From a virus, in IMG/VR virus record IMGVR_UViG_3300042923_000311, positions 1 to 28,874 of that record: DNA of 28,874 bases, one strand, 5' to 3'. How positions within the stretch are numbered: the stretch's first letter is position 1; each line of letters starts with the position of its first letter. The notes beneath the pieces were generated by a model. The model was not told the DNA's origin. It worked only from the letters and a program-made list of their open reading frames with translations, and ran no database searches. This document shows positions 882 through 26,837 of this stretch, one piece after another. Position numbers and translations under genes: made by a program.

Positions 882-913
882 AAAAAGGGGAGACCACGCA
901 TTCGCAGTCTCCC
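882..913 (-). terminator. Rho-independent terminator closing the minus-strand late transcript and tRNA-like RNA
   Basis: On the minus strand GGGAGAC (913-907) pairs with GTCTCCC (894-888) as a perfect 7-bp stem with a 12-nt loop, followed by C and five T (886-882). It lies about 40 bases beyond the tRNA-like domain and is the first strong terminator after the holin gene, so it probably sets the 3' end of both the late mRNA and the structured RNA. Confidence 0.85.
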
Positions 914-950
914 ATGTGGTGAAGTTGCTAAAGTAATAAACATTCTCCAA

Positions 951-1208
951 ATGAACCAGGCAAGGATTTGCACCTTGCATGTTTAACCATAACCGTTTGT
1001 GATGGATGCAAGGTCTTACATATAATAACCGATTTACGTTACAGGCGGCTTCATTTATTGCAAGAGTTAATCTTGCTACCATCCTAAAATGCCGTATGTC
1101 CCTTATGCATAAATCAGTCTTTCTAAGGCTCTTGCAACCTATAAGAAACCAAAGCCTTACATTGGTTAAACTACGTTGTACCGTCTACCTATTCCGGCAC
1201 AGGTTCAC
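951..1208 (-). ncRNA. tRNA-like structured RNA with pseudoknot-capable insert
   Basis: No gene of either strand fits this 375-bp gap, but the minus strand folds into a tRNA outline. GTGAACC (1208-1202) pairs with GGTTCAT (957-951) as a 7-bp acceptor-like stem, with T8 G9-type linker bases (1201-1200). A D-arm follows: TGCCG (1199-1195), loop GAATAGGTAGA, CGGTA (1183-1179), very close to leucine tRNA D-arms. GTTTAACCA (1171-1163) pairs with TGGTTAAAC (989-981), nine pairs where the anticodon stem should be. The T-arm is CAAGG, loop TGCAAAT, CCTTG (977-961). The insert of about 170 nt contains TAAGGCT (1159-1153) matching AGCCTTA (1130-1124) and hairpin GCAAGA/TCTTGC (1076-1060). There is no encoded CCA and no normal anticodon arm. 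It resembles the phage tRNA-like classes described by comparative genomics (TLS-PK type); assignment to a family is inference. Confidence 0.72.
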
Positions 1209-1237
1209 AGCTGTTGACAGCCCAGTAACTGTAATTA

Positions 1238-1246
1238 ATTATATCA
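1238..1246 (-). promoter_or_regulatory. Possible extended -10 promoter for the tRNA-like RNA
   Basis: The minus strand carries TGATATAAT, a perfect extended -10 (TGnTATAAT), 30 bases before the acceptor-like stem. No good -35 is found at the usual distance, since that place is occupied by the hairpin at 1260-1274. A start near 1231 would give an RNA of about 350 nt ending at the terminator at 882. The RNA could also come only from the late operon. Confidence 0.45.
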
Positions 1247-1259
1247 CATTTTTATGTAT

Positions 1260-1274
1260 CCCGGCATAGCCGGG
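1260..1274 (-). other. Hairpin just after the holin stop codon
   Basis: Perfect 6-bp GC stem CCCGGC/GCCGGG with a 3-nt loop, 14 bases beyond the holin stop. It lacks a T-run on either strand, so it is not a standard terminator. It may protect the 3' end of the late mRNA or mark processing between the mRNA and the tRNA-like RNA. Confidence 0.5.
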
Positions 1275-25898: not shown

Positions 25899-26331
25899 GT
25901 GTCTTCCCCTCCTGTTCCTTAAATGCGTCAATTCGCTTGTCTGCATAAGGTTTCCCCATCCAAGTCACCAGTTCTTCCAAATAGAATGGTTCACCACATC
26001 GAGGGCAACAAGGTATTTGGTGGTGACCTCTGTAATCTTTCTCAAGCCGTTTAATGACCTTCAGCCACGGTTTGTATTCTGCCAATCTCTGGCGTTGCTC
26101 TTTCATTCTCTGCATTGTCTCGTTAATATCTTCCCAATGCATTGCAACCTGATAAATTGCTTCATAAGGATCAACTACCGCCCCACAAGTGGCACATACT
26201 ACTCTTCGATTTTTAGTATCAATGAGATAACTCGGTTTCTTGCATTTGCATAACTTTTCTAGACCACGGTTGATGCGTAATTGGTCAAGTTGGATAATGT
26301 TTTCTTCTGGTAGATCAGGCATCCGTATCAT
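25891..26331 (-). CDS. Hypothetical protein with two zinc-ribbon-like cysteine pairs
   Basis: About 146 residues (ATG 26331) or 143 (ATG 26322); the evidence does not decide between them. Cysteines occur as CKCKK near 28-32, CATC near 47 and CPRC near 109, so two zinc ribbons are possible, one split by a helical region (EDINETMQRMKEQRQRLAEY). The C-terminal part ends near YADKRIDAFKEQEG. No known family is recognised; nucleic acid binding is a fair guess. It overlaps neighbours at both ends. Confidence 0.72.
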   Translation of the reverse strand: MIRMPDLPEENIIQLDQLRINRGLEKLCKCKKPSYLIDTKNRRVVCATCGAVVDPYEAIYQVAMHWEDINETMQRMKEQRQRLAEYKPWLKVIKRLEKDYRGHHQIPCCPRCGEPFYLEELVTWMGKPYADKRIDAFKEQEGKTHA

Positions 26332-26500
26332 CTTCTTTCAGCCAATCCTTAACCTCAGCATGTTTTGAATCTTTGGCTATCTGTTCAACTGCTAAACGCA
26401 TTCCAAATGCAACTCCGTTGTTATATCCATGCGACTTTTTTTCACGATTGGAAAGCACTCGTTTGTATAGTTGATTTAATTCTTTCTGTGCTTCACTCAT
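26315..26500 (-). CDS. Hypothetical protein with C-terminal DWLK module
   Basis: About 61 residues from ATG 26500, which overlaps the stop of the preceding gene (ATGAGTGA). The protein is helical, with SEAQKELNQLYKRVLSNREK and a C-terminus AEVKDWLKEDDTDA that resembles the end of the upstream gene (DVADWLKDSDKDE). This makes the two look like tandem paralogues, with the longer gene having an extra N-terminal domain. No known family. Confidence 0.68.
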   Translation of the reverse strand: MSEAQKELNQLYKRVLSNREKKSHGYNNGVAFGMRLAVEQIAKDSKHAEVKDWLKEDDTDA

Positions 26501-26837
26501 CTTTATCACTATCCTTGAGCCAATCCGCAACATCTGGATGCTCTTTGGCAATTATTTCAATGACTTTTTCTATGGATTCACGTACATTAAGATGGGAAAT
26601 GCATCCAGCACTAAATCCGTCATACCATTGCTTCAATTCATCCCTAGGCGACATCGGATTGACGATCTTCTTGCCGCTAAATACAGCGTGAACAATATCA
26701 ACGATTTCCTCGGGTTCATTTGTGCTGAAACATTCTAATGCTCCCTTTAAACGCCCCATTCTGTTTTTCTGGTGATCATTCAAGTGACTTAGTGTGTTAA
26801 TCCCCACTCTTACTTTCAGCACAAACGGTTCACTCAT
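26493..26837 (-). CDS. Hypothetical protein, longer paralogue with DWLK module
   Basis: About 114 residues from ATG 26837, with GGGAG eight bases upstream, overlapping the previous gene's stop (ATGAGTGA). The N-terminus (SEPFVLKVRVGINTLSHLND) is followed by a helical middle and the conserved end IAKEHPDVADWLK. It shares this C-terminal module with the next gene, pointing to duplication. No family is recognised. An earlier in-frame ATG at 26915 lies inside the previous gene. Confidence 0.68.
   Translation of the reverse strand: MSEPFVLKVRVGINTLSHLNDHQKNRMGRLKGALECFSTNEPEEIVDIVHAVFSGKKIVNPMSPRDELKQWYDGFSAGCISHLNVRESIEKVIEIIAKEHPDVADWLKDSDKDE

Follow-up and report, generated by a model that had tools for sequence, protein, structure and literature searches.

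What kind of RNA is encoded on the minus strand at 882-1246 of this viral DNA, and what use would a phage have for the ends and elbow of a tRNA built around an insert that could not decode? Mimicry of tRNA is known from tmRNA, YrlA and plant-virus genomes. The window, by which we mean the whole stretch analyzed, comprises positions 1-28,874 (28,874 nt) of the IMG/VR virus record IMGVR_UViG_3300042923_000311. Its genes follow one another on the minus strand in the order DNA methyltransferase, dUTPase, RusA resolvase, late activator, terminase, portal, tail and endolysin, and the RNA sits past the lysis genes. Direct reading of 1246-882 on the minus strand recovered every part listed in the initial annotation of this DNA. 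The features, from upstream to downstream, are as follows (R1 is the covariance model described below).

1260-1274, minus strand: hairpin CCCGGC-TAT-GCCGGG, by direct reading; a comparable hairpin lies behind the same ORF in relatives L321-L323
1238-1246, minus strand: extended -10 promoter-like site TGA-TATAAT without a -35 consensus, read by eye from sequence only
1200-1208, minus strand: acceptor stem, 5' strand in the family register (9 nt, one U.U mismatch; 1208-1202 in the register of the initial annotation)
1198-1199, minus strand: equivalents of U8-G9 in the family register; UG in 179 of the 179 non-redundant places listed, outside the search pattern
1181-1197, minus strand: D-arm with loop GAATAGGTAGA, of the tRNA-Leu type with A17, from the R1 alignment
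980-1180, minus strand: insert of about 200 nt in place of the anticodon and variable arms (50-90 nt in most family members)
1163-1171, minus strand: closing stem, 5' strand, pairing with 989-981; starts 10 nt after the D-stem, which is the family mode
1124-1167, minus strand: possible compact H-type pseudoknot, 1167-1162 with 1152-1147 and 1159-1153 with 1130-1124, present in the sequence; equalled in 124 of 1000 shuffles
981-989, minus strand: closing stem, 3' strand; p=0.002 against shuffles at the family's fixed 3' end
979, minus strand: U48 equivalent, Levitt partner of A15; T in 98% of 164 representatives
960-978, minus strand: T-arm, with a 6-bp stem (978-973 with 965-960) and the loop TGCAAAT (972-966), within the second R1 match
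951-959, minus strand: acceptor stem, 3' strand, by direct reading; no CCA encoded
882-913, minus strand: intrinsic terminator, an 11-bp stem followed by CTTTTT (scan match 913-888)

Both the region and its core fold more stably than expected: 882-1246 lies below dinucleotide shuffles with z=-3.4, and the 258-nt core (951-1208) lies below shuffles with z=-3.6. The minimum-energy fold holds the acceptor, D-arm, T-arm and 9-bp closing stem. In the acceptor, the 7-bp stem described earlier (1208-1202 with 957-951) is present and is favored by the minimum-energy fold together with a longer D-stem, but the family register extends it to 9 nt (1208-1200 with 959-951), as placing U8-G9 directly after the acceptor needs a 9-nt stem with a U.U mismatch. 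The D-stem in that register is 1197-1195 with 1183-1181.

The family became visible through short exact matches. A blastn search of the region against 50,697 phage records turned up stretches of 22-25 nt shared exactly with phages of Listeria, Enterococcus, Brochothrix and Paenibacillus, nearly all of them spanning the T-arm and most of them intergenic. The matched loci share a frame consisting of an acceptor stem, TG, GYGGAAYAGGTAGACRC, a variable insert, (C)ATG, the TGCAAAT T-arm and the 3' strand of the acceptor. Patterns written from this frame were run against IMG/VR, and the family set, collected with no acceptor condition imposed, holds at least 179 non-redundant places; positions fixed by the pattern (D-loop, T-loop and GG/CC) were left out as evidence. 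Among 84,980 prokaryote species, such patterns found 62 stretches, whose record titles point almost throughout to Bacillota, and a composite query of both arms found 217 phage records at a loose E limit that lets in chance matches. The body of the window's own insert, searched with blastn against the 50,697 phage records, found no similar DNA beyond the T-arm and one weak 36-nt match.

Each of the seven acceptor pairs forms in 85-99% of the 179 non-redundant places listed, compared with 54% when the 3' strands were dealt among the sequences and 33-44% when they were slid. The stem is fully paired in 140 of these 179 places, and 130 different 5' strands occur. The four outer pairs of the T-stem, on which the pattern likewise set no condition, are formed in 97-100% and by several types of pair. 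Across a 45-sequence alignment, 190 two-sided changes were counted in 16 pairs, against 46 in shuffles. Covariation in homologues, the test set beforehand for the proposal of a tRNA-like RNA, is thus strongly present in the acceptor pairs, in the 16-pair alignment and in three subfamilies discussed below. The D-stem of the family has 3 bp, following a 7-bp acceptor and U-G, and the T-stem has 6 bp, so that the stacked acceptor and T arms would measure 13 bp instead of 12. As the comparison shows, the RNA keeps the acceptor, D-arm and T-arm of a tRNA-Leu along with most positions of its tertiary contacts (U8-A14, A15-U48, G19-C56 and U54-A58), but position 55 is G. CCA was not encoded in any family member examined.

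We built the covariance model R1 from 45 homologues chosen for complete acceptors, with the window excluded. Searched against the 28.9-kb window, R1 matched 1206-1111 (E=2e-6) and 1040-960 (E=5e-6), and the next match had E=4.7. The window RNA is a member of the phage family that R1 defines, with the acceptor, a Leu-type D-arm with a purine at position 17, the UGCAAAU T-loop and a 6-bp T-stem; the proposal of a tRNA-like RNA with a Leu-type D-arm is therefore borne out by a model that had not seen it. R1 also confirmed members in SPP1, phi3Ts, PSA, SBSphiJ3, LP65, phiJL-1, D6E, Leuconostoc LN34, Brochothrix ADU4 and Enterococcus Ben. The family extends to phi3T and A511/P100, with a decayed member in P100, and its hosts are mostly Bacillota. 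Leu-type D-loops occur with other T-loops in 28 stretches, about 7 of which look like members on inspection, and the TGCAAAT T-loop occurs with other D-loops in five stretches, all with G17. The two loops are coupled, and UGCAAAU with its G55 is the hallmark of the family.

Bacterial tRNA-Leu stands close to the family, which shares with it a near-identical D-arm (GYGGAAT[A/G]GGTAGACRC), U8-G9, A15-U48, the acceptor and the T-arm. The family differs in lacking the anticodon and variable arms and CCA, in its 6-bp T-stem, UGCAAAU loop with G55 and unconserved discriminator, and in its hypervariable insert. True tRNAs that R1 matched at E<0.05 in the scanned loci were tRNA-Leu wherever ARAGORN names a type, and these matches lay in loci carrying many other tRNAs. 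This weak recognition of real tRNA-Leu, together with the shrunken or decayed state of some members (phiFL2A, P100), could be taken to mean that the elements are degenerate tRNAs or attachment-site remnants without function. Strong covariation, the invariant non-tRNA G55 and the presence of members in lytic phages, including SPP1 and Herelleviridae, make such an origin extremely unlikely; for the family as a whole it is ruled out by the covariation, and it is conceivable for single decayed copies. In Enterococcus phiFL2A (L003:1980-2035), L054 and L013, little or no insert is left, as though the arms had stayed while the cartridge was lost by deletion.

Catalogued families offered little. Rfam 15 at gathering thresholds gave no match in the window, ARAGORN called no tRNA or tmRNA there, and Rfam at E up to 10 gave chance matches only in the region. 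The nearest Rfam family is tRNA (RF00005), to which the short Brochothrix member L008 scores 29.8 bits against a threshold of 29 and L337 scores 14.3 bits; apart from this weak tRNA match, the family has no match in Rfam 15. The window RNA was rejected as a tRNA, since an insert stands where the anticodon arm with its 7-nt loop should be, ARAGORN finds no gene and the gathering score is not reached. A tRNA-Leu with a group I intron was rejected as well: no intron family matched at E up to 10 in the window, L337 or L008, the typical inserts of 50-90 nt are too short, and the flanks lack an anticodon stem. GOLLD and ROOL resemble the family in being phage-encoded structured RNAs often found near tRNA islands (PMC12286853), but they are several hundred nucleotides long, have other structures and gave no Rfam match here. 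Literature searches for "TLS-PK" with tRNA-like and for phage tRNA-like RNAs returned no matching paper, within a reach that did not extend to the 2017 candidate-RNA survey. Apparently, no catalogued family found here has the ends and elbow of a tRNA and also a swappable insert where the anticodon arm would be. Present in hundreds of phage loci and in the textbook phages SPP1, phi3T, PSA and A511, this RNA family has been overlooked by Rfam 15 and by the phage annotations examined.

The insert itself is held in a defined position. Over the family as a whole, the best Watson-Crick helix reaches high strength only where its 3' strand stops 2-4 nt short of U48 (-4.9 to -3.6, compared with -1 to -2 at most other offsets), and in the window the 3' strand of the closing stem ends exactly at the family position, 2 nt before U48. 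The stem that the initial annotation saw in place of the anticodon stem is thus a closing stem at the family's fixed place, and by its sequence the insert replaces the anticodon and variable arms and is closed in a fixed register. At 258 nt, the window RNA is among the longest of the family, whose typical full lengths are 110-150 nt.

Pseudoknots within the insert are a property of subfamilies. In subfamily A1, helix S1 flips from GGGC/GCCC to GCCC/GGGC and three pairs of S2 change; in A2, the acceptor, S2 and S1 come out near the top of the covarying helices in an unsupervised search; and in A3, both helices change. Two-sided changes affect each of the crossing helices in three separate subfamilies. 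In the 67 members whose closing stem is confident, crossing pairing also beats shuffles (-7.3 vs -5.4), with 16% at p<=0.05. When a single fixed pseudoknot geometry was sought across all inserts, the closing stem stood out and the crossing helix was not above shuffles; the crossing helix is visible only in aligned subfamilies and with confident closing stems. These results agree with the earlier suggestion of a tRNA-like class with pseudoknotted inserts spread across phages, to which R1 assigns the window RNA. The particular H-type pseudoknot proposed for the window fares less well. It is present in the sequence and competes with the closing stem as described, the two being mutually exclusive, but an equally good one arises in 12% of shuffled inserts. 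Because of this frequency and because it would exclude the closing stem, we regard it as only possible.

The inserts are exchanged between phages that have near-identical flanks and a conserved tRNA-like core. L002 and L008 carry unrelated inserts between flanks that are 97% and 100% identical, and the same holds for L176 and L189 (95/97%) and for L205 and L182 (95/94%); under the same scoring, unrelated inserts align at about 45%. As a separate observation, the long family members at L270:5498-5746 and L156:5318-5566, identical to each other, and the one in L087 have inserts that hold what looks like a complete ordinary tRNA nested inside, of which ARAGORN calls only that of L087.

The initial annotation placed the window RNA at the end of the late operon, and here its reading has to be revised. 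The last late ORF (1693-1289) is followed by the hairpin at 1274-1260, which probably closes the late operon ahead of the RNA cassette. The three relatives L321-L323 keep the same ORF and a comparable hairpin and then continue with other sequences, the RNA being absent, and in relatives the slot holds other genes. A search for homologues of the window's own insert by way of the neighboring proteins led to such same-ORF relatives without the RNA. The extended -10 site predicts a transcript start near 1231 and went unlisted by a two-hexamer promoter scan because the -35 is absent. A terminator scan of the region found 4 matches against 0.7 expected, the match at 913-888 being strong. Since the relatives keep a hairpin without the RNA, and an extended -10 and a terminator belong to the RNA itself, the window RNA is a self-contained accessory cassette in a variable slot and not the tail of the late operon.

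Elsewhere the surroundings differ. Family RNAs lie between the late activator and HNH or terminase genes, in tRNA clusters of 120-160 kb phages, and in SPP1 between genes 9 and 11, in sense orientation inside the head operon. The large phages hold several different copies among their tRNA genes (four in L210, three each in L158 and L212). The spacing to the flanking ORFs has a median of about 135 nt on both sides, mostly on the same strand, and no general promoter or terminator is shared around family members, which fits excision from longer RNAs. That spacing, the place of the SPP1 member in the head operon and, in Listeria prophages, a position right behind a leader that matches the initial ~165 nt of rliG, and often ahead of mcrA RNA, would suit a fold that serves as processing punctuation, namely an RNase P/RNase Z cutting signal separating neighboring transcripts (leader, late mRNA and small RNAs), with an insert that has no function in trans. 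A cutting signal, however, needs neither a closing stem in fixed register nor covarying pseudoknots nor insert exchange, and the window RNA stands apart as a unit, having a promoter-like site and a terminator to itself. We therefore consider punctuation unlikely. The proximity to terminase genes raises another alternative, that of a packaging RNA or a cis-acting late-operon element, for example one for antitermination of the terminase region. TerS, HNH or TerL genes lie within four ORFs downstream in 27 of the 89 loci with enough context, but members also occur in the tRNA clusters, between the two SPP1 genes and past the lysis genes in the window, and one phage may hold several different copies, so that this role is very unlikely.

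In the Listeria phages, the RNA has small-RNA neighbors. Many have mcrA RNA (RF03010) downstream and some have rliG (RF02415) or rli62 (RF01486) upstream, forming a small-RNA cluster between the activator and the HNH gene; in L004, L007, L009, L011, L041, L209, L213 and L349, mcrA RNA follows the tRNA-like RNA within about 200 nt. These neighbors share the place and differ in kind: rliG has only the upstream leader in common, its alignment stopping before the tRNA-like part, and mcrA RNA is unrelated in sequence. rliG is an experimentally detected transcript. It was rejected as proof of expression of the family RNA, because the apparent overlap dissolves in the alignment and only the leader matches. 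In Listeria phage CKA15, the unannotated transcript described as the most abundant (PMC12282133), which lies between phage tRNA genes at 26236-26727 (L354:4237-4728), was likewise rejected as a member, since R1 finds none in that region.

Two known tRNA mimics suggest what such an RNA might do in trans. The tag-less tmRNA of phage DS6A is reported to inhibit host tmRNA, a precedent for a trans-acting phage tRNA mimic (cited in PMC11915505). tmRNA and this tag-less version share with the family a tRNA-like domain in which a stem and pseudoknots replace the anticodon arm. Following that precedent, the RNA could antagonize tmRNA and ribosome rescue by occupying SmpB, EF-Tu or tmRNA-processing enzymes, or by entering stalled ribosomes, as would suit its tRNA-like elbow and replaced anticodon arm; in Enterococcus Schiekvirus a member directly adjoins a phage tmRNA. 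The family nevertheless has no tag frame, keeps its D-stem intact, has another T-loop with G55 and a 13-bp acceptor/T stack, and shows no conserved G3-U70 (position 3 is G-U in 6 of the 179 places listed). Neither Rfam nor ARAGORN calls a tmRNA (RF00023) in the window, an identity that was accordingly rejected, and a variable insert would be unexpected for a conserved target. A rescue antagonist is thus distinctly unlikely.

The nearest structural analogue is YrlA, a bacterial Y RNA and non-coding tRNA mimic that has D, T and acceptor arms and another helix at the position of the anticodon arm (PMC8394870). By analogy, the tRNA-like half could work as a tether, recruiting PNPase or an RNA-binding ring protein, and P100-type phages encode a DUF2828/DUF7788 protein, called Rsr-like (PMC12282133), near a tRNA cluster that holds a member. 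YrlA, however, ends in a Ro-binding stem with its acceptor arm internal, whereas the family RNA ends at the acceptor; no sequence or Rfam match to YrlA was found at E up to 10 in the window, L337 or L008, so that YrlA identity was rejected, and no such gene recurs among the neighbors. A tether of this kind is very improbable. As for the protein that PMC12282133 calls Rsr-like (P100 gp165, L347:21570-23090, and CKA15_055), it matches Pfam DUF7788 and DUF2828 and gave no TROVE match at E up to 0.01.

We regard the structure of the family as secure and offer its mechanism as a hypothesis. The best explanation, to which we assign a probability of roughly 0.4, is a constant tRNA-shaped handle joined to a domain that can be exchanged and acts as decoy or effector. 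As tRNA biology suggests, the RNA would be cut from longer transcripts by host RNase P and RNase Z, the precursor being mRNA of the late operon in many phages, a transcript of the tRNA cluster in others and its own short transcript in the window. The product would be a compact, nuclease-resistant, L-shaped RNA unable to decode. With less certainty, the tRNA-like half could act as the constant handle, bound by a tRNA-handling host factor, and the variable half as a decoy or effector chosen by conflict with host defenses or translation-control factors. Such a role of the variable half would account for the swapping of inserts between near-identical flanks; the exchange could also come from neutral recombination between conserved arms. 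No defense system or partner protein co-occurred consistently among the neighbors examined, and our search for expression or processing data on any family member found none.

The ends of the RNA bear on which host factors could be involved. A73, the discriminator for leucine acceptance, is not conserved in the family (A in 49%, T in 32%), and the base at 950 in the window is T. Charging by LeuRS, and perhaps CCA-dependent handling, is therefore not a general property, and the unconserved discriminator together with the 13-bp arm argues against an RNA that is generally charged and bound by EF-Tu. That stack and G55 may also reduce handling by standard tRNA enzymes. Only tentatively, and with more doubt than the handle-and-domain explanation carries, the family might be a new class of phage conflict RNA, in which a tRNA-Leu-derived, host-processed body carries a hypervariable pseudoknotted cartridge exchanged to fit host defenses or translation control. 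If so, the class would be common to temperate siphophages, SPP1, SPbeta-like phages and Herelleviridae of Bacillota. A processed trans-acting RNA would be a common, unnoticed phage tool, whose G55 T-loop and exchangeable cartridge would provide handles for a host partner. The family is a candidate, open to test, for the means by which phages manipulate their bacterial hosts or escape them.

Two further observations concern the company of the family RNA. In SPP1, a second small tRNA-like element follows the member (L343:2603-2670), running from ACGGAC through a T-arm, GCGGGTTCAATTCCCGG, to GTCCGT; it is too short for normal D and anticodon arms, and odd T-arm elements similar to it follow the family RNA in L013, L237, L205 and L182. 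Finally, L038, L088 and L210, which combine large tRNA arrays with family members, contain tRNAs called Pyl with the anticodon CUA, which suggests possible reassignment of TAG.
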